Assembly (NCBI GenBank): GCA_902762795.1
Contig: CACWPM010000014.1
Coordinates: 1 to 58,054 of the forward strand
DNA from: Fibrobacter succinogenes
GTDB lineage: Bacteria; Fibrobacterota; Fibrobacteria; Fibrobacterales; Fibrobacteraceae
Reading direction: 5' to 3'
Length of the DNA: 58,054 bases
The position numbers and the translations under genes are program-made. Each line of letters starts with the position of its first letter. The stretch's first letter is position 1. Below the pieces are notes generated by a model, which saw only the letters and a list, made by a program, of their open reading frames with translations, did not search any database and had not been told where the DNA came from. Positions 12,309 through 58,054 of the stretch are shown piece by piece.

Positions 12309-13139
12309 ATGGCAGAAATCTTTGATTACGATGACTACCGGGACATGATCAAGGATTATTACCTGGAGCACAAAAAACACAACTCCTTGTATTCCTTCAG
12401 CACTCTCGGCAAGATGCTTGGCTTGGATTCAAGTCACGCTTATTATATAGTTCAAAAAAAACGAAATCTTCCCGTTCATGCGGTCCCTGCCGCCAAAAAA
12501 ATGCTCGGGTTAGATGGTCGTGGTGCCGCATATTTTGACTTGTTGATTGTCGCGTCACGCACAAAGTCCGAAAAAACTAAAGCGGAAATTTTGCAAAAGG
12601 CGTTCCTGCTTCGCGATGTAAAGCGCCATCTGCTCAAGGATAACGAGCTCAAGTATTTAAGCGCCTGGTGGACCATCGTCGTGAGAGCTCTCATCGAAGT
12701 GAAACATGGTAACGTTGACATTCCGGAAATCGCAAACAGCGTCATTCCGCCCATCACCGAAGAACAGGCACAAGAAAGCATCGAAATTTTAAAATCGCTC
12801 GGCTTTATCCAACCGATCAACAATAACAACAAAGTCCGACTTTCCGACCCGCACATCACGGTTCAAGGCGCCGAAAAAGCCGAAGCCATCCGCAGTTTCC
12901 ATTCGAAAGTCATGCAGTTCGGCATCCGCTCGTTAAGTGAAATTCCGCCAGAGAACCGGGACATTTCAACCATCACCATGGCAGTCGATTCCAAGGGCTT
13001 CGAAGACCTCAAGAAGATGCTCAAGGAATTCCGCAAAGAAATTCAGATCCGTGTCGACAAGTGTATTGTGCCCGATCGAGTGATGCAATTGAACCTAGCC
13101 TTATTCCCCGTCGCACTCGATAAGAAGAAGGAAAAATAA
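12309..13139 (+). CDS. TIGR02147 family regulator (Fibrobacter paralogue family)
   Basis: 276 residues. It fits the TIGR02147/DUF4423 pattern: FDYDDYRDMIKDYYLEHKK, an N-terminal helix-turn-helix-like part (FSTLGKMLGLDSSHAYYIVQKKRN), a middle winged-helix-like stretch (ITEEQAQESIEILKSLGFIQ), and a C-terminal block ending RVMQLNLALFPV. The second copy in this window (56390-57229) has the same architecture and ends YRLNLQLFPL. Probably a DNA-binding regulator of the lipoprotein gene that starts one base after its stop codon. The ATG at 12309 is chosen over a TTG at 12303. Confidence 0.85.
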   Translation: MAEIFDYDDYRDMIKDYYLEHKKHNSLYSFSTLGKMLGLDSSHAYYIVQKKRNLPVHAVPAAKKMLGLDGRGAAYFDLLIVASRTKSEKTKAEILQKAFLLRDVKRHLLKDNELKYLSAWWTIVVRALIEVKHGNVDIPEIANSVIPPITEEQAQESIEILKSLGFIQPINNNNKVRLSDPHITVQGAEKAEAIRSFHSKVMQFGIRSLSEIPPENRDISTITMAVDSKGFEDLKKMLKEFRKEIQIRVDKCIVPDRVMQLNLALFPVALDKKKEK

Positions 13140-13140
13140 A

Positions 13141-14679
13141 ATGAAAAACCTTAACAATCTTCTTTATTTTATCCCCTTTGGACTTCTCGCTGCTTGCGGA
13201 TTGGGCAACGATTCCGCCGGGAACACGACGGAAATCGAAAACGCCATCGCTATCCGGGTTTTTGACGACGGAGCACCTGCCGCTAACGTGCGCTATCAAG
13301 TACTTCCGTCCTGGTATGTCGCAGATACGGCCGAAACAAGTGCCGTAAAATACATCTATCAAGGAACCACCGACTCCGATGGCTGGGTACACATCAACGG
13401 TCACAAGGACGGGTCCTACACCATCAACTTTACCAAGGGCGATTCTTCAATCGTCCTGCAATACACGCTCAACAATCTCAATCACGAATACACGCTCGAC
13501 AGCGCAGCGCTCGAAGCCGCCGGCACGGTCATGGGACTCGTTGATTTGCCGGACTCCTCGGACTATGCATGGGTCGCGGTCCAAGGGATAAACACAATTG
13601 TCAAGACCGATTCGCTTGGGCAGTTCGTCATCCGTAAAGCACCCTGTGGCAACCTCATCGTAAGCGCCTGGGATGCCGAAGAACTCAGCGCCATCGGCGA
13701 GACTTCTGCAAGCGTGACCTCGAACGACACAATTGACCTCGGCCTTATCGAGAATCCGAACAAGGAAATCCCCGAGAACGCCATCCGCTTTATGCCCTCC
13801 GACTTGATTTCGGACTGGATGCGCCCGCTCAGCTTCCCGACCGTTCTCATACTGCGTCTGGACAAGCACAACTTCGACTTCTCGAAGGCTGAAAAGGACG
13901 GTAGCGACATCCGCCTCTATGACGGGAAAGGCAACCTAATTCCATTTGAAATTGATGGTTGGGACACGACAATCAACAGCGCAACACTGAACATCCGCGT
14001 CGAAAGCGCAGCCGACACCGTAAGGCCATGGATGCTCACATGGGGCGACAAGAAGGCTCCAAAACTCGACAGCGCCAACGTCTGGAAAGACCTCAGCGAT
14101 TCGCTCCTCGCCTCCCTCAACAGCGTTGAAATTTTGAACTTTGATGAAGGAACTCAGTACAACGCGCTCCCAGAACCGCTACGCAACTACTGGTACATCC
14201 AGCCGCACGATAGCGCAACCCTTAGCGACGCCATGAAAAAAGACCTTCTCAACGGCATCGTGAAAGCCGACAGTTCCATCTTCGGCAAGAAAGTCCTCCA
14301 TATAGAATATTCCGCTGACGGAGACAAAGGTCAGTATATCGTCTTCGGGACCCGCATTGCAGCCCACCAGCACGACCTGAGCAGGCTCGACTCCGTAGAA
14401 GTTTGGCTTAAAGGCAATGGAGACTTCGAAATAATCCTCGAAACTATCGTCGAATCCGATACAAACTACAAGACCTCATATCAAGGAAGCGTCAATAAGG
14501 AATGGACTCGCATCGTAGTTCGTCCATCTGACTTTACAAACTCCGACGGCAAGAGTTACCATGGTTGGGACGTGACTCGCAACAAAATAACGCGCTTTAC
14601 CATTTTTGCCTACAACGGTACAGACCTTTGGATTGACAACGTAAGAATGTACGGGATAAACTTCGACGATTTGCTGTAA
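13141..14679 (+). CDS. Lipoprotein with DUF2341-like and C-terminal jelly-roll regions
   Basis: 512 residues. The lipoprotein signal ends LLAAC. Residues about 35-215 look like two carboxypeptidase-regulatory/Ig-like beta domains (IAIRVFDDGAPAANVRYQVLP; GTVMGLVDLPDSSDYAWVAVQG). Residues about 230-310 match DUF2341 (FDFSKAEKDGSDIRLYD, PFEIDGWD, WMLTWG). The last 190 residues resemble a carbohydrate-binding beta-sandwich of the CBM11/CIA30 type (VEVWLKGNGDFEIILET, WTRIVVRPSDF, ITRFTIFAYNGTDLWIDNVRMYG). Likely a surface protein that binds polysaccharide. It is in an operon with the TIGR02147 regulator. Confidence 0.85.
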   Translation: MKNLNNLLYFIPFGLLAACGLGNDSAGNTTEIENAIAIRVFDDGAPAANVRYQVLPSWYVADTAETSAVKYIYQGTTDSDGWVHINGHKDGSYTINFTKGDSSIVLQYTLNNLNHEYTLDSAALEAAGTVMGLVDLPDSSDYAWVAVQGINTIVKTDSLGQFVIRKAPCGNLIVSAWDAEELSAIGETSASVTSNDTIDLGLIENPNKEIPENAIRFMPSDLISDWMRPLSFPTVLILRLDKHNFDFSKAEKDGSDIRLYDGKGNLIPFEIDGWDTTINSATLNIRVESAADTVRPWMLTWGDKKAPKLDSANVWKDLSDSLLASLNSVEILNFDEGTQYNALPEPLRNYWYIQPHDSATLSDAMKKDLLNGIVKADSSIFGKKVLHIEYSADGDKGQYIVFGTRIAAHQHDLSRLDSVEVWLKGNGDFEIILETIVESDTNYKTSYQGSVNKEWTRIVVRPSDFTNSDGKSYHGWDVTRNKITRFTIFAYNGTDLWIDNVRMYGINFDDLL

Positions 14680-49723: not shown

Positions 49724-49752
49724 GCTCGCGATTCTTTCGCGAGCTATTTTTT
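49724..49752 (+). terminator. Terminator of rph
   Basis: Eight-pair stem GCTCGCGA/TCGCGAGC followed by TATTTTTTT. It overlaps the stop of the convergent lipoprotein gene. Confidence 0.85.
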
Positions 49753-51303
49753 TCCGGAGACAAAGGGATATACACTTTGTTTGCAAACATTTTTCACATC
49801 GGCATACTTACCGACACCGATAACATTGAACTTGCTCGCAGAGCCCGCATCTCCGTAGGCTGCAAACAAAATCGATGCGACATGAGCCGGGTCGCTAGGG
49901 GTTTCCGCAGCGGAGACAAAATCGCTCCATTTCGAGCACACCGTCTTGGCCTCAGTACTCTTGGGCAACGAAACCTTGGGCAATAGCGCCATTTTCTTGA
50001 TATAGGTAAATGTCGTATCATTGGACATTACCACATCCATATCCGTTTCAGAAGTGTAAGTCACGCACAAACCTCCCCAGGCAGAAATATCGGCAATGTC
50101 CGGGGCTCCATTATTTCCAGACAAAGCTTCCCCGGCAACATTAAAACCGATCCCCACAACGCCCTCACCCTTATATATGAACGTTCCGCAAATACCCTCG
50201 CATACTTCTATAGCTCTATCGACTATATTTTCATATTCAAGTTGCATTACAGGCCAGTCAACGTACGTATTAGCTTCATCATCATCGAAACTGAACCAAT
50301 ATCCGGATGTTTCGGACCCATTATCGAGCCCTGTCGCCACATGATAATCATACTTATTGACAGCCTTCGGACCATACCACATTTCGCTAACGGACTCCGG
50401 AGTAACGCATTCGCCATCGCCACTGCTTGAAGGTGCGGAAGACGAGCTATTCGGATTTGAAGCAACAACTTTGCACGACCCGCCAGCAACGTACTTGCCG
50501 ATCGAAACAATCTTAAACGGTCCAATCATGGACTCACCGCTTCTTATTCCGAATTTAATGTTTCGGACTTTCTTGGCAGCCTCGGCTCCGGGGATTGGAT
50601 TTTCATCATCGTCATAATCAAAATCATTCCAGGTAAAGCATTCTTCTACCAAATCTTCAGATTGGCCCAATTCAACAATCACTTCCGTATTTTCATCAAC
50701 ACCAAGTTTCATGAACAAATTCAGACTCGATGCAAACGTAACGCAAATGCCGCCCCAGTCACTGATATCAGCAGACTTTGGAACTTCTACACTTTCACCA
50801 GGGTTTTCAAAACCGGCCACATTGAATGCCACGCCCACATTAGCTTCACGTGCAGTACCTTTTTTGACATACATTTTTCCACAAAGGCCACCGCAATGAT
50901 CCACAATATACTGCATACAATCCGAACCATCATTGGGGCAATCTACATCCCATTCAACACGAGATACGCCTCCCTCATCGGTATCATCATAAGAATACCA
51001 ATATCCGGCACCACTCTCAGCATCTAGGCCCAAACCCGTATTTACGATGAATTCACCCTTTTTGCCATTCCACAAACATGCGGCGGGATCCACAGAAGCG
51101 CCAGCACTGCTCGACGATACGCCAGCAACACTGCTGCTTGAGGCGTCTTCCATAGCCCCACTACTTCCTGGAGCTGGTTCAATAGACGAGCTGCTTTCGC
51201 CGGCATTAGGTTCGACGAACGGAACCGAGGGATTGTCATCAGAACAAGCGACAACGCCAAGCAACAAGGCTGAAGAGGCGAATACCAAGAATTTTTCAAA
51301 CAT
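49744..51303 (-). CDS. Tandem paralogous lipoprotein A (two-domain)
   Basis: 519 residues from the ATG at 51303, which has AAGGAG at good spacing; the frame reaches 51333. The signal ends LLLGVVAC, then a Ser-run linker (GESSSSIEP, ASSSSVAGVSSSSAG). Two copies of one domain follow (about 80-285 and 310-515), each with GYW(Y/F)S(Y/F)DD, a CxGxCG turn, VGxxFNVAG, ADIS(D/A)WGG(I/L)CVTF/Y, a (C)FTWNDF or CSKWSDF strand, and IGKY near the end. The shape resembles CBM11/CIA30-type jelly rolls, so polysaccharide binding at the surface is likely but unproven. The last 60 residues are almost identical to lipoprotein B. Confidence 0.85.
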   Translation of the reverse strand: MFEKFLVFASSALLLGVVACSDDNPSVPFVEPNAGESSSSIEPAPGSSGAMEDASSSSVAGVSSSSAGASVDPAACLWNGKKGEFIVNTGLGLDAESGAGYWYSYDDTDEGGVSRVEWDVDCPNDGSDCMQYIVDHCGGLCGKMYVKKGTAREANVGVAFNVAGFENPGESVEVPKSADISDWGGICVTFASSLNLFMKLGVDENTEVIVELGQSEDLVEECFTWNDFDYDDDENPIPGAEAAKKVRNIKFGIRSGESMIGPFKIVSIGKYVAGGSCKVVASNPNSSSSAPSSSGDGECVTPESVSEMWYGPKAVNKYDYHVATGLDNGSETSGYWFSFDDDEANTYVDWPVMQLEYENIVDRAIEVCEGICGTFIYKGEGVVGIGFNVAGEALSGNNGAPDIADISAWGGLCVTYTSETDMDVVMSNDTTFTYIKKMALLPKVSLPKSTEAKTVCSKWSDFVSAAETPSDPAHVASILFAAYGDAGSASKFNVIGVGKYADVKNVCKQSVYPFVSGKK

Positions 51304-51373
51304 ACAAGACTCCTTTATTTTGTCTATATACACGACAGGCTCACCACCCCTAGTCGGGCATGACTATTTGCTG

Positions 51374-51402
51374 TGGAACTGATCGGCGGCGGATTGCTCT
51401 AG
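51374..51402 (+). pseudogene. Relic of the rph 3' end
   Basis: 29 bp align with 49652-49680, the last codons and stop of rph, with 23 matches and mostly transition differences. In frame it reads VELIGGGLL-stop against MELIGGELP-stop. It lies between lipoprotein genes A and B, and its TAG overlaps the stop of B on the other strand. Best explained as what is left of rph sequence copied together with a lipoprotein gene. Confidence 0.7.
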
Positions 51403-53117
51403 TCATTGGGTAAAAACTGCCTTGACACAAACGGTTCTGCACCTTGTTTGCAAACGTTCTTTGCATCAGCATACTTACCGACACCGATAACATTGAACTT
51501 GCTCGCAGAGCCCGCATCTCCGTAGGCTGCAAACAAAATCGATGCGACATGAGTCGGGTCGCTAGGGGTTTCTGCGTAGGTGACGAAATCGCTCCACTTC
51601 GAGCAAACTGTCTTGACTTCGGTACTCTTGGGCAACGAGACCTTGGGCAATAACGCCATTTTCTCGACATAAGTATATGTCGTATCGTTGGACAATACCA
51701 CATCCATATTTGTTTCCGCGGCATAGGTCACGCACAAACCGCCCCAAGCAGAAATATCGGCAATGTCCGGGACTTCATCATTGCCATGAAAAACAACCCC
51801 GGCAACATTAAAACCGATACCCGTCACACTCTCATCTATAAACTTGAACGTCCCGCAAATACCCTTGCATTCTTCTACAACCCGGTAAAGGCCGTCCTCA
51901 TATACATATTGCCATTGTTGCAAAGGCCATTCTACATTCGCTTTGCCATTTTCACCATCGAAACTGAACCAATATCCAGATGTTCCAGTTCCATTGTCAA
52001 GTCCTGTCTCTACATGATAATCATAAATATCGATAGCCTTCGGGCCATACCACAGATTGCTAACGGACTCTGGAGATACACAATCGCCACTGCTAGAAGG
52101 TGTGAAAGACGAACTGCTCCCACCCACGCCAGAGCTGCTTGAGCTCCGCAATATAATCGTCCCGACCTCAGCTCCATTGGATGATTTAGTAACGACATAC
52201 GCAAAACCGTCTACTTCGCACGCTCCCTTCGCATCAAATTTACCGATTGCTGCGATATTGAAATGTCCTCTCGTTTCTTCGACGCTTTTCATCACAATTC
52301 TAATGGAATGGGCATGTTTAGCCGCCTCGGCCGCAGTTGATGTCGCTGTTGCGGTTGCACCGACAAATTCACTCCAAGGAACGCACTTTTCCACAAATTC
52401 AGTAGACTTGTCCAGCTTGGCTTCATAAAAAGTGACTGAATCCGCACCAAGCCGCAAGAACATTTCCCTGTCGGCAGCATACGTCACGCAAACACCGCCC
52501 CAGCCACTGATATCGCCATACCGCTGGATATGTTTCGTATAATATTCATCAGGATTTTCAACCCCGGCAATATTAAATCCAACACCCGCTAGAGCTTCAT
52601 TCAAGATGCCTTTTTTCAAGACAATCGCTCCACTATATCCCCCATAATATTCAAGCAAGTTTTCCATGCATTCATACTCGGGAGTTTCAAACACGCAAAC
52701 TTCGGGGAAAACAACTCTTGACATTCCACCATCAGGATCATCGTCAAAATTATACCAAAGTCCGGCGTAATTACCAATATCCACATCAACAAATTCCGTA
52801 TTCACATATGTCTTTTTATCAACGCCCCGCCACAAGCAGGCGGCAGTATTCTTCTTAGGCTTTTCTGCTTTGCTGCTCGAAGAAACTCCAGCCGCCCCGA
52901 CACTGCTCGACGACATGCCTACAGCGCTGCTGCTAGAGACATTTTCCGCACCCTCACTGCTACTGCCTGGCACAGTCCCCTCAAGAGACGAAGAACTTTC
53001 GTGACTCCCGCTAGACCCCGGCAACACGGCATTCGCATCCGCCGGATTGTCATCGGTACAGGCGACAACGCCTAGCAACAAAGCCGAAGCCGCAACTCCA
53101 AGAATTTTCCTATACAT
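51399..53117 (-). CDS. Tandem paralogous lipoprotein B (two-domain)
   Basis: 572 residues. The signal ends LLLGVVAC. The linker is very serine-rich (several SSSS runs, residues about 38-90). Two copies of the array domain follow: the first begins CLWRGVDKKTYVNTEF, with GYSGAIVLKKG in place of CGGxCG and DISGWGGVCVTYA; the second begins LWYGPKAIDIYDYHVETG, with CKGICGTF, DISAWGGLCVTYA and FNVIGVGKYA. Domain 2 is closest to domain 2 of A: 85 bp at the 3' end are identical (51469-51553 and 49802-49886). Confidence 0.85.
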   Translation of the reverse strand: MYRKILGVAASALLLGVVACTDDNPADANAVLPGSSGSHESSSSLEGTVPGSSSEGAENVSSSSAVGMSSSSVGAAGVSSSSKAEKPKKNTAACLWRGVDKKTYVNTEFVDVDIGNYAGLWYNFDDDPDGGMSRVVFPEVCVFETPEYECMENLLEYYGGYSGAIVLKKGILNEALAGVGFNIAGVENPDEYYTKHIQRYGDISGWGGVCVTYAADREMFLRLGADSVTFYEAKLDKSTEFVEKCVPWSEFVGATATATSTAAEAAKHAHSIRIVMKSVEETRGHFNIAAIGKFDAKGACEVDGFAYVVTKSSNGAEVGTIILRSSSSSGVGGSSSSFTPSSSGDCVSPESVSNLWYGPKAIDIYDYHVETGLDNGTGTSGYWFSFDGENGKANVEWPLQQWQYVYEDGLYRVVEECKGICGTFKFIDESVTGIGFNVAGVVFHGNDEVPDIADISAWGGLCVTYAAETNMDVVLSNDTTYTYVEKMALLPKVSLPKSTEVKTVCSKWSDFVTYAETPSDPTHVASILFAAYGDAGSASKFNVIGVGKYADAKNVCKQGAEPFVSRQFLPND

Positions 53118-53351
53118 AATAACCCATCCTTTTTAGTTTAGATGAAACAAACATTTTTCAAAAAACGAAAGTTTCGCAAATTCCACACACCAAACAGAAC
53201 TTTATTTCTATGTCATTTATCCGCAATAATTTACAACAACTTCAATACAGGTATCAGAAGCGCAGTTTATTCACAAGTTACTTTTTTCACATTCTCGCTT
53301 CTTTGTACATTCTACGGTCAACCGCGTGACAGCGCTTGAACTTCAGCAAAT

Positions 53352-54953
53352 CTACATAGTAGAAGAGCTTTTTGAAACAACAGTCTTATCAATGGAGCAA
53401 GCTCCGGTAGCGGAATATTTTCCGATGCCAACAACATTGAACTTGACCTTTTCTCCATCGACATTGCTCTTAATGACAAACTGAACCGTACTTACAGCAG
53501 CCCCCATATTGGGATTTCCCGGCGCAATATCGTCCCAAGTAAAGCATCTTTCTATAAGCGCATTTGTCTTTGGCAAAGTAACCTTGGGTGTACTGTCATC
53601 AGGTACATCTTTTACAAGAAAGTTCAAGTAAGCATCCTTTTCAGAAAAATAAGTGATGCAAACTCCGCCCCAATTCCGGATATCTCCAAAGTTTGGATTT
53701 TCGCCATCATCGTCTGTTACATGAAATCCAATACCACCAGCGGCATATTCGGCGCCTTCTAGCGTAAATTCCATCGTTCCACAAAAACCGGAACATTCAG
53801 CAACAATACCACTATACATATAAGGGTTAATATCCAAGGACGGATAAGCATGGCTTTTAACAGAAACAGAAGCTCCTTCGGGAGACGCATCAAAGCCATA
53901 CAACATGCCCACATATTCATCTAAATCGTTATAGCCAGTTTTCACATGGGTTTCTCCAAGCGTCCCTTTCCACAGGCAAGTCAACGAATCGTCATTTGTC
54001 GTGGTCAAGCCGACATCCCGTCCATTCACGCCACCATCGCGCTTCCACTGCGGGAGATTTTCATCGTAAGTGCTAATACCTACGATATTGAAGTTTACCG
54101 TATCATTGGAATTACCCGCGAGCACAAAGATCAAGGATTTCATTTCTTTAGCGGCCTCTTCACCGGAATAGACTTTGTTCAATTTGTCCTTGTTGTATTC
54201 CGCCCAGCTGGATGTTATAAAATCACTCCATTTGCCGCAACGCGTAATGACGACATCAGGGTTTATCAGATTCACAAGCGATGGTTCATCCGTCACGGTC
54301 TTCGGAAGCGTGATGCCCGGATAAGCCATCATCGGAGACGCGTCCTTAATTGTATCAACGCCACCAACTTCTACAGCAAGGTAAACATCCACCGGATATT
54401 CAGATGCATACGTCACGCAAACGCCTCCCCAAGAGGAAACATCCGCAGTAGAATCTTCCTCGGCAAGCATAAAGCCTATACCCACCCAAGGCTTAGATGT
54501 CGGATGCTGGAATACCGCCTTTCCACATATACCCCCGCAATGTTCAAACACGCCTTTCAACCCATCTTCTGAATACGAGTTGCCCGGCGACACAGGCCAG
54601 CTTACATAAGAATAATCATCACCAAAACTATACCACCAACCCGTATTATCGTTATTGGTATTTACCTTTTCGTCAAATTTGCCATTCCACAAGTCAAACT
54701 TAGGCGTTACCGCCTCAGCGCTACTTGAAGAACTTCTAGAATTGACATGGCTGCTCGAAGAGTTGTTTATGGTCCCATCGCTCGAAGAAATATCCTTTAC
54801 GGCGCCGCTCGAAATTTCAACGACAGACGAGCTGCTTATTCCATAGGCCGTAGGATTGCCATCTTCGGTGACTCCCGCCGTGTTGTCATCGGAACAGGCG
54901 GCTAACCATAACGCCAAAGCGCAAACAACTACTCCAAGATATTCCCTAGCCAT
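53352..54953 (-). CDS. Tandem paralogous lipoprotein C (two-domain)
   Basis: 533 residues. The signal ends LALWLAAC; a TEDGNPTAYG and serine-run linker follows. Domain 1 (about 80-300): GWWYSFGDD, CGGICGKAVF, VGIGFML, DVSSWGGVCVTYAS, CGKWSDF, FNIVGISTY. Domain 2 (about 320-525): VGMLYGFD, CSGFCGTMEF, GGIGFHV, DIRNWGGVCITYFS, CFTWDDI, FNVVGIGKYS. It begins 25 bp after lipoprotein D, so the two are probably one transcript. 234 bp separate it from B, enough for a promoter. Confidence 0.85.
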   Translation of the reverse strand: MAREYLGVVVCALALWLAACSDDNTAGVTEDGNPTAYGISSSSVVEISSGAVKDISSSDGTINNSSSSHVNSRSSSSSAEAVTPKFDLWNGKFDEKVNTNNDNTGWWYSFGDDYSYVSWPVSPGNSYSEDGLKGVFEHCGGICGKAVFQHPTSKPWVGIGFMLAEEDSTADVSSWGGVCVTYASEYPVDVYLAVEVGGVDTIKDASPMMAYPGITLPKTVTDEPSLVNLINPDVVITRCGKWSDFITSSWAEYNKDKLNKVYSGEEAAKEMKSLIFVLAGNSNDTVNFNIVGISTYDENLPQWKRDGGVNGRDVGLTTTNDDSLTCLWKGTLGETHVKTGYNDLDEYVGMLYGFDASPEGASVSVKSHAYPSLDINPYMYSGIVAECSGFCGTMEFTLEGAEYAAGGIGFHVTDDDGENPNFGDIRNWGGVCITYFSEKDAYLNFLVKDVPDDSTPKVTLPKTNALIERCFTWDDIAPGNPNMGAAVSTVQFVIKSNVDGEKVKFNVVGIGKYSATGACSIDKTVVSKSSSTM

Positions 54954-54978
54954 AATCCAACTCCGTTCCTATCCCATA

Positions 54979-56409
54979 TCATTTATTTCCTTTCGGGAAC
55001 CCCAAATACTTCGATTCGTCGATAGCGCACGCTCCGTTAGCAGAGAATTTTCCGATAGCGATGACGCTCAAGCCGACCTCCATATTTTCATCACTCTTGA
55101 CAATGAACTCGATATTGCGAACACTCTTGACCAAGTCTTCAGCCGACATGTCATACCACGTAAAGCACTTTTCAACAGGAGTCACGGATTTTTCCAACGC
55201 GATGCTCTTTTGCAAACTCGAATCGGCAACAAGCACCACGTGCATATCCCATTCCGCCGCATAAGTCACACAGAGACCATCCCAATCGCTGATATCAACA
55301 GCCTTGGGATAGAGATCGGAGCTTCCGGCATCACGACCAACGAGTCGCACTCCAAAACCTGCATAAGCGGCGCCATCAATAGAAGGATCGTTCCACAAGG
55401 AAACCTTTGCGGAAAGACTTCCCCATTCTTTTACGACGTCTGCCATCCATTCGGAGGTGCTCATGTAATTCTCAGGCCATGCCGAACCCCAAATTAAATA
55501 CGAATGGCCGGTCGTTTGGTTATCACGGAGATCGTACCAGAATCCACCTTGCAATTCTTCGAAGCCCATTTTTATCGAATCCAGAGAATCTAAAGGCGAT
55601 CCATTCCAAAGGCAGCGATTTTCTCCAGCAGTCCCCTCTTTCACAATTCCATGCTTGAAGGAACTCACGCCCCTAATATTGAAATAGCCCTTTTCATTCG
55701 GCTTTCCGAAGAACTTGAACTTTATCGAAGTCGCCTTTTTCGATACGTCTTTTCCAGATTTGACATTCAAGGAATCGAGCTTGAAATCGCCCCACTTTGC
55801 ACAGCGGGCAGCCGTAATTCCCTTTACAGTCTTTTCAAAATTGACAAAAGGCATATTCTCCGCAGTTGCACTGACTTCGCCTTCTTTATAGCCAAGCAAT
55901 GCATTCATCGGAAGTTCCGATTCATACGAAACGCACAAGCCGTCCCATCCGGAAATATCGATTGTCGAATCATTTTCCGTAAGCGCAAAACCCACACCGG
56001 CGCTAGATTCCTCCTGTCCGCCGAGTTCGACCGTTCCACACAAGCCGCCGCAATAAGAGACGATTTCCTGCATCGCTTCAGGAGAATGCGTGTTCACCTT
56101 GGCGATCGGGAACTTGACAGACGAGGTTCCACCGTCCGCCTCATCGTCAAAGCTATACCAATAACCCGTTCCAGCTTCACCTGTATTTACAATAGCGCTT
56201 CCATCTGCACCGTTCCACAAATCAAACTCGTAACGCGGTCCCACACTGGAACTGCTTTTCGGAACAACAGAAGAACTACTTTCGCCTATTGACGAGCTAC
56301 TATCAACATAAGAAAAAGGATTCGGGTTACCATCTTCCGTAATCCCAGAACATGCGACCAAGCCAAGCACCATGGCACACACCGACACACTAACGAATTT
56401 CTTTCCCAT
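54979..56409 (-). CDS. Tandem paralogous lipoprotein D (two-domain)
   Basis: 476 residues. The signal ends VLGLVAC; then SGITEDGNPNPF and a short serine linker. Domain 1: GYWYSFDDEADGG, CGGLCGTVEL, VGFAL, DISGWDGLCVSYES, CAKWGDF, FNIRGVSSF. Domain 2: GGFWYDL, WGSLSAKVSL (the Cys pair is lost), AGFGVRL, DISDWDGLCVTYAA, CFTWYDM, IAIGKFS. The ATG lies 20 bases inside the end of the TIGR02147 gene, so it is directly coupled to it. Confidence 0.85.
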   Translation of the reverse strand: MGKKFVSVSVCAMVLGLVACSGITEDGNPNPFSYVDSSSSIGESSSSVVPKSSSSVGPRYEFDLWNGADGSAIVNTGEAGTGYWYSFDDEADGGTSSVKFPIAKVNTHSPEAMQEIVSYCGGLCGTVELGGQEESSAGVGFALTENDSTIDISGWDGLCVSYESELPMNALLGYKEGEVSATAENMPFVNFEKTVKGITAARCAKWGDFKLDSLNVKSGKDVSKKATSIKFKFFGKPNEKGYFNIRGVSSFKHGIVKEGTAGENRCLWNGSPLDSLDSIKMGFEELQGGFWYDLRDNQTTGHSYLIWGSAWPENYMSTSEWMADVVKEWGSLSAKVSLWNDPSIDGAAYAGFGVRLVGRDAGSSDLYPKAVDISDWDGLCVTYAAEWDMHVVLVADSSLQKSIALEKSVTPVEKCFTWYDMSAEDLVKSVRNIEFIVKSDENMEVGLSVIAIGKFSANGACAIDESKYLGFPKGNK

Positions 56410-57229
56410 CGTTTTTATCCTCTCCCCAAGTCAGTGGAAACAACTGTAAATTCAACCTGTAAACCCTTTCGGTACCGCGACTGTTCAAAGCTATTTGCGC
56501 TATTTTTTTTCGACAAGTATCCAGTTCCTGCAAAATCTGCTTATAATCCTCAGCAGAAATCCCCATGGTGAGCCCCGTAAAGTTTCTCTCCGATGGAGCA
56601 AACCGGTTTATCGCCTCTTTGGCAAAGGTCGCCATTTCGCGATGCATTGAACGCAGCGCCATCGAAACGATCGACGACGAGCTTTTCAAATGCTTATCCG
56701 CCTGCACATAGGCATCGCCATTTTTTTTCAAGAGCCCCGCCTTGACCATAAAGTCTAGCGAATTGCGGATATCTCCAGCGGAAACGCCTTGACAACAACG
56801 CCTCGCAATATCGCCCGGAGTCGCCCCCGACATCACCGGCGCAAGTTCTCTCACCACCGGATGCACCCAGGATTCAAAATACCTGAACGCATCGCCATCC
56901 ACAACTTTAACTTTGTTGTTAGACGCGAGTTCCAGCATGGCTTCATAGGCTTCTTTGCGTTCAGGATCCGTCTTGGCATGACAATAAGTCACCATCGTCT
57001 TGAAATACTCAAGTTCAAAACCGGCGAGGTTCATTGCCGCCCCGACCTTTTCTGCCCCCTGAGGAGAAAGACGGGTCTTGCCTTCGCACACAAGCTTCAA
57101 ATAAGTCGGCGAAGTAAAACCAGAGGCCCGCGTATATTCACGCCATGAAAACGACGAAACGCGTTTCCGTTCGTTGTAATAGTCCTGCATATACATGCGG
57201 TAATCTTCGTATTCTGTCACCGACTTCAT
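56390..57229 (-). CDS. TIGR02147 family regulator, second copy
   Basis: 279 residues from the ATG at 57229; the frame extends to a TTG at 57265. Same plan as the protein at 12309: YEDYRMYMQDYYNERKR, an HTH-like stretch (WREYTRASGFTSPTYLKLVCEGKTR), a winged-helix-like middle (GDIRNSLDFMVKAGLLKKNG) and a C-terminal VYRLNLQLFPL. Probably controls the lipoprotein genes D-C (and perhaps B-A) that follow on the same strand. No clear SD. Confidence 0.85.
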   Translation of the reverse strand: MKSVTEYEDYRMYMQDYYNERKRVSSFSWREYTRASGFTSPTYLKLVCEGKTRLSPQGAEKVGAAMNLAGFELEYFKTMVTYCHAKTDPERKEAYEAMLELASNNKVKVVDGDAFRYFESWVHPVVRELAPVMSGATPGDIARRCCQGVSAGDIRNSLDFMVKAGLLKKNGDAYVQADKHLKSSSSIVSMALRSMHREMATFAKEAINRFAPSERNFTGLTMGISAEDYKQILQELDTCRKKIAQIALNSRGTERVYRLNLQLFPLTWGEDKNDGKEIR

Positions 57230-57465
57230 ACTAGGAAATATATACTTTTTTATTCCGTTTCGCAATAGTCTATGATACTTTTATCGTATTTATAAGCAAA
57301 AACAAGCGAAATTTCGCAAAACAGCCAAAAAATGCATATTTTCATGATACTAACTTTTAATCGTTACTTACAGGACATGTCATTAGGAAATTTCTTACCA
57401 AGAAGCTCCAGCAACTCGAAACCTGAAATTTCCGAACGACCACGAACGAAAGTCCTAACGACTAC

Positions 57466-57500
57466 AAAAAAAATGCGGATGAGCATTCGCCCATCCGCAT
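57466..57500 (-). terminator. Terminator of lipoprotein E
   Basis: Nine-pair stem ATGCGGATG/CATCCGCAT, with eight T following on the minus strand. It separates E from the regulator unit. The rest of 57230-57542 shows no gene. Confidence 0.9.
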
Positions 57501-57542
57501 CCAGGTCGTCATTTTGGATTCAGTTAAAACAGTTTCTGCATT

Positions 57543-58054
57543 CTAACGCCCGATTTGCGCCTTGTAATAGTCGATATTTTTGACGTAGTTTTCTTGAATG
57601 TCGCATTCAGAGCCCGAATATTGTTTATACTTGCCCAAGCCCATGATGTTGAAACCCGTCTGAGTAGATTCGTCGCCACGCCAAAGGAACCGGATAGAAA
57701 CAATGTTAGTCGGATCAAAGGTACGGTTCATCGATGAGGTAAATTCGTCCCATTTCACGCACTTTGTCGTCACATCAACGCTTCGCGGCAACGACGCCTC
57801 AAACAAATCTTCAATAGAAAACGCATAAAAAGTATCTTCAGGGGTCCAAAAACTTTCTTCGTCATAAAGTATCGCGATGCTCATATCCGTTTCAGAGGCA
57901 TACGTCACGCACAAGCCGCCCCAGGCAGAAACGTCACCGGCAGCCGGATTTCCAAAGTCCGGATCTTCACCGACAACGTTGAAACCAACACCTACAAACG
58001 GTTGATCGGTTAATGAATCCTTGCTAAAAGATGTTATACCACAAACTCCACCAC
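57543..58054 (-). CDS. Tandem paralogous lipoprotein E (5' part outside window)
   Basis: The last 169 codons of a further member, open at the right edge. One array domain is visible: GGVCGIT, VGVGFNVVG, DVSAWGGLCVTYASE, CVKWDEF, FNIMGLGKYK, then a short unique tail (NYVKNIDYYKAQIGR). The start and N-terminal copy must lie beyond 58054. Confidence 0.85.
   Translation of the reverse strand, partial: GGVCGITSFSKDSLTDQPFVGVGFNVVGEDPDFGNPAAGDVSAWGGLCVTYASETDMSIAILYDEESFWTPEDTFYAFSIEDLFEASLPRSVDVTTKCVKWDEFTSSMNRTFDPTNIVSIRFLWRGDESTQTGFNIMGLGKYKQYSGSECDIQENYVKNIDYYKAQIGR

Follow-up and report, generated by a model that had tools for sequence, protein, structure and literature searches.

The window, that is, the whole stretch of DNA analysed here, is the entire contig C14 (58,054 nt) of a 3.93-Mb Fibrobacter succinogenes genome in 89 contigs. 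The list of its open reading frames contains four complete lipoprotein genes (A to D) and one partial gene (E), all on the minus strand and near a TIGR02147 gene (Table 1). The end of the window and contig C9 share an exact overlap of 90 bp. Contig C9 supplies the N-terminus of lipoprotein E including the lipobox, the first domain of E and a separate TIGR02147 gene upstream of E; the joined E protein has 509 amino acids and two domains. A signal peptide with lipobox and cysteine is found for A to D in the window sequence and for E after joining of the contigs. Lipoprotein A probably starts at the ATG at 51303; the listed GTG at 51333 lies upstream of it.

Table 1. Features of the lipoprotein locus, in window coordinates
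Feature	Position	Strand	Remarks
Lipoprotein A	49744..51303	-	Two jelly-roll domains, Ser-rich linkers
Domain copy A2	49774..50388	-	Copy modelled with AlphaFold; profile search E 2.6e-74
Domain copy A1	50464..51081	-	Profile search E 2.6e-77
Lipoprotein B	51399..53117	-	Two domains; diverged post-Cys tag CTDDNPADANAVLPG
Domain copy B2	51444..52061	-	74% identity to A2; profile search and alignment
Domain copy B1	52209..52841	-	Profile search
Lipoprotein C	53352..54953	-	Two domains; gene no. 2 downstream of the regulator
Domain copy C2	53385..53981	-	Profile search
Domain copy C1	54060..54698	-	Profile search
Post-lipobox tag of C, CSDDNTAGVTEDGNPTAYG	54840..54896	-	Sequence and motif
Lipoprotein D	54979..56409	-	Two domains
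Domain copy D2	55015..55617	-	Profile search
Domain copy D1	55651..56226	-	Profile search
Post-lipobox tag of D, CSGITEDGNPNPF	56314..56352	-	Sequence and motif
TIGR02147/DUF4423 regulator	56390..57229	-	TIGR02147 6e-86, 288.3 bits; DUF4423 6.4e-32
-10 box TATATT	57237..57242	-	Ends 7 nt before the regulator ATG
-35 box TTGCGA	57260..57265	-	17-nt spacer
Proximal operator-like word AGTATCAT	57272..57279	-	Six bases upstream of the -35 box
Distal operator-like word AGTATCAT	57344..57351	-	72 bp upstream of the proximal copy
Terminator-like hairpin with T tail	57471..57502	-	Between E and the regulator unit
Lipoprotein E, C-terminal part	57543..58054	-	Gene cut by the contig end
Domain copy E2	57591..58052	-	Partial within the window; profile search

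A first-pass annotation of this DNA had described at least five lipoproteins that share a domain of about 200 residues in at least nine copies. This is borne out: profile searches find nine copies in the window (E 4.8e-78 to 2.0e-51) and ten with contig C9, which makes all five proteins two-domain, and the lipid anchors and serine linkers that it had noticed are likewise present. It had also placed the array around a TIGR02147 regulator. The regulator stands (288 bits), the single centre does not. We rejected one regulator for the whole array because E has its own TIGR02147 gene on contig C9. The joined locus, with five lipoproteins, ten domains and two regulators, consists of two adjacent units, regulator-E and regulator-D-C-B-A, with the hairpin between them. 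The first 20 bp of gene D lie within the end of the regulator gene, which suggests translational coupling of the two genes. C follows D after 25 bp; the further genes B and A lie behind gaps of 234 and 95 bp and may have promoters of their own. Far from the array the window contains a second TIGR02147 gene (12309-13115, plus strand), followed directly by a lipoprotein gene (13141-14679, plus strand) whose product has the tag CGLGNDSAGNTTEIENAIAI and weak matches to DUF2341 and CarboxypepD_reg.

The nine window copies of the domain align with seven invariant columns, and their pairwise identity is 24-41% except for one pair with 74%. Over 187 copies, W13, W40, C117, Y120 and W163 (numbering of copy A2) are conserved to 90-100% and the four cysteines (those of CxGxCG, C117 and C160) to 85-100%. 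With hmmscan against Pfam, the five lipoproteins have no match at E up to 1 to any CBM family, PF03425 included, or to CIA30. An assignment to a family from sequence had to be given up, as there was no match in Pfam, NCBIfam or PHROGs and the sequences in the PDB yielded only chance matches; in the first-pass annotation, too, the pattern had matched no carbohydrate-binding family that could be named.

The AlphaFold model of copy A2 is good (pLDDT 83.2, pTM 0.84). Its best matches with Foldseek are CBM11 (1v0a, 3.0e-5) and CIA30 (7zkp, 4.9e-5). VIA gives a Z score of 12.4 for 1v0a (rmsd 3.2, 151 residues) and of 12.5 for 7zkq (159 residues), and chains of CBM11 and CIA30 occupy the top five places at Z of about 12. 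The lower ranks are mostly CBMs and sugar-active enzymes, among them CBM29, agarase modules, CBM30 and CBM4. The domain is therefore predicted to be a jelly roll of the CBM11/CIA30 type. This agrees with the likeness pointed out in the first-pass annotation; the structure prediction brought up carbohydrate-binding relatives and no confident match to an unrelated family. CBM11 (PF03425) is represented by CtCBM11 of Lic26A-Cel5E from Clostridium thermocellum (1v0a, 6r31), with which the window domain shares the predicted jelly roll and a similar length. However, the two have no sequence match and only 15% identity in the structural alignment, and the window domain has its four conserved cysteines and stands in tandem on lipoproteins without a catalytic domain. 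The same genome has a CBM11 match above the Pfam cut-off, in a large secreted enzyme. A profile-profile comparison with the CBM11-type modules of the genome itself gave no match, with a template of only three sequences (Neff 1.9). CIA30/NDUFAF1, like CBM11, resembles the domain in its predicted fold, yet it is a mitochondrial assembly factor of complex I with 12% identity and no common biology. Since CIA30/NDUFAF1, no known glycan binder, matches as well as CBM11, the fold leaves the function unsettled.

A link to cellulases comes from a GH8 enzyme of Fibrobacter intestinalis (Pfam GH8, 1.4e-26). Its C-terminal module is matched by the domain HMM built from 28 copies of the window's own genome (i-E 1.2e-6), and the profile-profile comparison between module and domain has a probability of 94.3% over 125 columns. 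Two more GH8-like proteins match the HMM more weakly. From this profile match, the domain appears to be tied to the ancillary modules of cellulases as a diverged relative. The match is distant but significant; the GH8 module has none of the conserved cysteines of the window domain and belongs to a secreted enzyme, not to a lipoprotein. GH8 cellulases whose C-terminal module is a relative of the window domain and has no annotation are encoded at the loci L184 (2457-4658, minus strand), L186 and L196, next to a GH5-type gene. In L184 and L196 these are followed by a secreted protein with one copy of the domain. The array on contig C30 is adjoined by a GH5 gene, too.

The 28 copies of the genome, which include all nine in the window, occur in four settings. 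There are lipoproteins that follow TIGR02147 genes (contigs C14, C9, C30 and C64), other lipoproteins (C15 and C25), secreted proteins that have one domain and end in a basic tail similar to a type IX sorting tail (C37, C4 and C8), and the N-termini of two proteins of 1021 residues (C10). In a relative, the tail of the GH5 enzyme neighbouring a domain gene weakly matches Por_Secre_tail. The two large proteins (L053, C10:18259-21324; L054, C10:37945-41010) are secreted; a diverged jelly roll occupies their N-terminus, and they also contain long cadherin-like stretches of repetitive sequence. Among 151 sampled Fibrobacterota genomes the domain is present in 90, in nearly all Fibrobacter, in fewer genomes elsewhere in the family and in almost none beyond it. 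The named relatives retrieved with the domain are, with one exception, Fibrobacter assemblies. A lipoprotein with the domain is also encoded on a short contig that bears the label Treponema sp. UBA3870 (L200). This contig may be Fibrobacter DNA that was binned wrongly, or else reflect a rare transfer, and we left it out as evidence for the spread of the domain.

Our best guess is that the jelly-roll lipoproteins bind glycans, a reading based on the predicted fold, the cellulase relatives, the classes of partner proteins described below and the lifestyle of the organism. It is also conceivable that the jelly rolls are structural or protein-binding surface domains, which might for instance attach to other cells, act as inhibitors or hold secreted enzymes on a scaffold. 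The equally high scores of CIA30/NDUFAF1, which binds protein partners, would fit such a role, as would the long Ser-rich stalks, suitable for scaffolds or adhesins, and the combination of the domain with Fib_succ_major, a domain of unknown function. The structural matches below the top two are, however, mostly to CBMs and sugar-active enzymes, a relative is the ancillary module of a GH8 cellulase, and sister modules carry CBM_4_9 and pectate lyase domains. We regard a structural or protein-binding role as rather improbable.

The second component of the locus is the TIGR02147/DUF4423 protein. Members of this family are classed as paralogous and have no stated function; the window gene, which scores 288.3 bits where the curated cut-off is 50, clearly belongs to it. 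An N-terminal helix-turn-helix is no stated criterion for TIGR02147, and we examined this part of the protein as the basis for the word regulator. Residues 6-96 are confidently predicted as a helix-turn-helix of the XRE/HigA type, with XRE/HigA repressors and antitoxins as the best structural matches (Z up to 9.0), several of which have been solved with DNA. Weak sequence matches to XRE regulators agree with this fold. The C-terminal DUF4423 half is modelled poorly (pLDDT about 40). Most likely the protein is a cytoplasmic DNA-binding regulator. TIGR02147 is present in 141 of the 151 Fibrobacterota genomes, with about 40 copies in the genome studied here. One copy (L047, C79:18-711) is split into two overlapping frames by a frameshift or an assembly error and another (L070, C20:48970-49506) runs into the contig end.

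The arrangement of the window is one case of a pairing found throughout the phylum, with common tags and with repeated words specific to each promoter, which goes beyond what had been noticed at first. In the window's own genome a lipoprotein gene directly follows the TIGR02147 gene in 36 of 36 intact copies that have downstream sequence. The same holds for 33 of 33 copies at related Fibrobacter loci, which were fetched via the domain and are no independent test of the pairing. Four distant genomes of the Fibrobacterota, which represent other genera, families and classes, show it in 38 of 40 cases. The partner lipoproteins contain Fib_succ_major, carboxypeptidase-regulatory-like, CBM_4_9 or pectate lyase domains, the jelly roll of the window, or no known domain. 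Some of them may be enzymes, in view of a paired lipoprotein with a pectate lyase domain on contig C22 (L057, 4765-6471). The Fibrobacter lipoproteins with Fib_succ_major (PF09603) are partners of the same regulators, lipid-anchored and equipped with the same tag. They represent a separate domain family, although both domain types do co-occur in one protein.

The tag is a motif a few residues past the lipidated cysteine, roughly [AS]G-x-[TS]-E-[DE]-x-N-x-[IVF]-A. When scored by leaving one out, 27 of the 36 paired lipoproteins pass the 99% level of shuffled sequences, as opposed to 0 of 17 background lipoproteins from a 400-kb sample; the background counts, and also the operator counts given below, were taken from selected stretches of the genome. 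In the distant genomes the tags score above background (p 6e-6) and 23 of 38 exceed the 99% shuffle level. Within the window the tag is clear in D and C and worn in A and B. A general export signal for lipoproteins is an unlikely explanation, given that none of the 17 background lipoproteins carries the tag; a role in a special export route is not excluded. We also considered that the regulator senses a lipoprotein-derived pheromone from the cleaved signal peptide. We dropped this idea because the signal peptides vary and the conserved residues belong to the mature protein, past the cysteine. When the type of partner is mapped on a tree of the 36 regulators, it requires 7 changes compared with 20.4 in shuffles (0 of 200 shuffles as low). 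This indicates that regulator and partner are inherited together, although the outer part has apparently been exchanged now and then.

The TIGR02147 promoters of the Fibrobacter expansion are typically sigma-70-like, and TATATT lies some 7 nt ahead of the start codon. From this position of the -10 box the regulator transcripts look leaderless or nearly so. Many of them have, just upstream of the -35 box, a word such as GTnnnAT or similar, and the same word recurs 70-73 bp further upstream. The words vary among promoters (TGTACT, TGTATAG, GTATAAT, TGTAGCAT, GTATCAT) but the two copies within one promoter agree. The distal word is often part of a perfect dyad, for example ATGATAC-ATTT-GTATCAT, ATGCTACAGTGTGTAGCAT or ACTATACAGGATGTATAGT; in the window the distal copy is a half-site without dyad. 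A further dyad upstream of the window regulator, GCGAAATTTCGC, occurs once and is absent from the orthologous promoters, and we set it aside. In the promoters of the genome itself, searched without an anchor, direct repeats peak at offsets of 70-73 with z 5.1, a somewhat generous value as the spacing had been seen by eye before. A repeat of at least 14 bits at offsets 69-74 is present in 8 of 24 promoters, while other offsets give 0.9 on average and block shuffles 0.2. Words are shared more within than across promoters: 29 of 10,000 permutations reach the observed value, and p is 0.02 when each regulator cluster enters with a single representative. The paired words are suggestive of cognate autoregulation of the surface-protein repertoire. 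This falls short of proof, since the distal copy in the window is only a half-site, no clear pair of repeats stands at the expected distance in about half of the promoters of the clade, and we had noticed the spacing before we tested it.

The neighbourhood of TIGR02147 and lipoprotein genes could also be a mere convenience of the operon, with the regulator acting elsewhere and the words belonging to an unrelated global factor. GTATCAT does recur in several promoters and could be the site of one common factor. This explanation is unlikely, however, as the pairing is kept across the phylum (38 of 40), the words differ among promoters and agree within each, and the partner type tracks the regulator tree.

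We suggest that the array exemplifies a module which is repeated many times in the Fibrobacterota. Such a module would consist of a TIGR02147 gene and, directly behind it, one or more lipoprotein genes. The first lipoprotein would combine a constant start (signal peptide, lipidated cysteine and short acidic tag) with an exchangeable extracytoplasmic part, which in the array is predicted to be two CBM11/CIA30-like jelly rolls behind a Ser-rich stalk. The jelly rolls most likely bind glycans and would be displayed at the outer membrane of a fibre degrader; that they are exposed at the surface is suggested by the stalks and the size of the proteins. Each regulator most likely binds the two promoter-specific words 70-73 bp apart and controls its own operon, so that each surface protein would be set by its own self-regulated switch. 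The word next to the -35 box would suit activation or, by looping, repression. As a whole, this model of repeated self-regulated modules with glycan-binding jelly rolls and cognate control by paired words is one that we think has a somewhat better than even chance of being right. That the lipoproteins instead form a variable coat against phages, protozoa or competitors, diversified by selection and not by the range of substrates, would suit the many paralogues with 24-41% identity between copies, the array sizes differing among genomes and the exchangeable outer parts on a constant anchor, but is unlikely considering the well conserved core of the domain over 187 copies and the enzymatic folds in some partners.

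One may go further and imagine a bank of surface lipoproteins across the phylum, with one regulator and its own operator word for each out of dozens of paralogous repressor-like proteins, the tag as the shared address for export or docking, and the outer domains swapped in the course of evolution. We offer this as a speculation that is on balance doubtful. If it were true, independent self-set switches would let every cell combine its surface glycan receptors in a way of its own. A published proteome of the cell envelope of F. succinogenes S85 quantified 49 lipoproteins, of which 40 were lower on cellulose than on glucose (PMC6851124). These data concern the quantified lipoproteins as a whole and call for caution against a simple model of induction by cellulose.

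In the open literature, with subscription papers and preprints outside the scope of our search, we found no description of the lipoprotein partner of TIGR02147, of the tag or of the repeated words. The name TIGR02147 is absent from the literature searched and DUF4423 appears in one paper, in a table of a Bdellovibrio proteome. The genome paper of S85 treats fibro-slime and CBM proteins, and the terms TIGR02, lipoprotein and major domain are absent from it. With this scope of the search, the novelty of these features is provisional.

Polysaccharide utilisation loci of the Bacteroidota (SusC/SusD) pair a local regulator with a glycan-binding surface lipoprotein. The module described here shares this general idea of a local regulator and a surface lipoprotein. 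It differs in that one regulator serves one or a few lipoproteins, and no SusD-like domain is present among the partner lipoproteins scanned with Pfam. Fibrobacter is a leading cellulose degrader of the rumen and has no cellulosomes; how it holds and chooses its substrates is an open question. The present families offer many proteins, so far without annotation, that are candidates for binding fibre at the cell surface and whose predicted fold can be tested. They also link a regulator family of unknown function to these candidates across the phylum and lead us to propose a concrete DNA code by which each regulator could find its own promoter. Finally, one stretch of contig C2 (L064, 2500-22000) contains four TIGR02147 units, each with a lipoprotein of the Fib_succ_major type, and a fifth tagged lipoprotein, and looks like a young duplication cluster.
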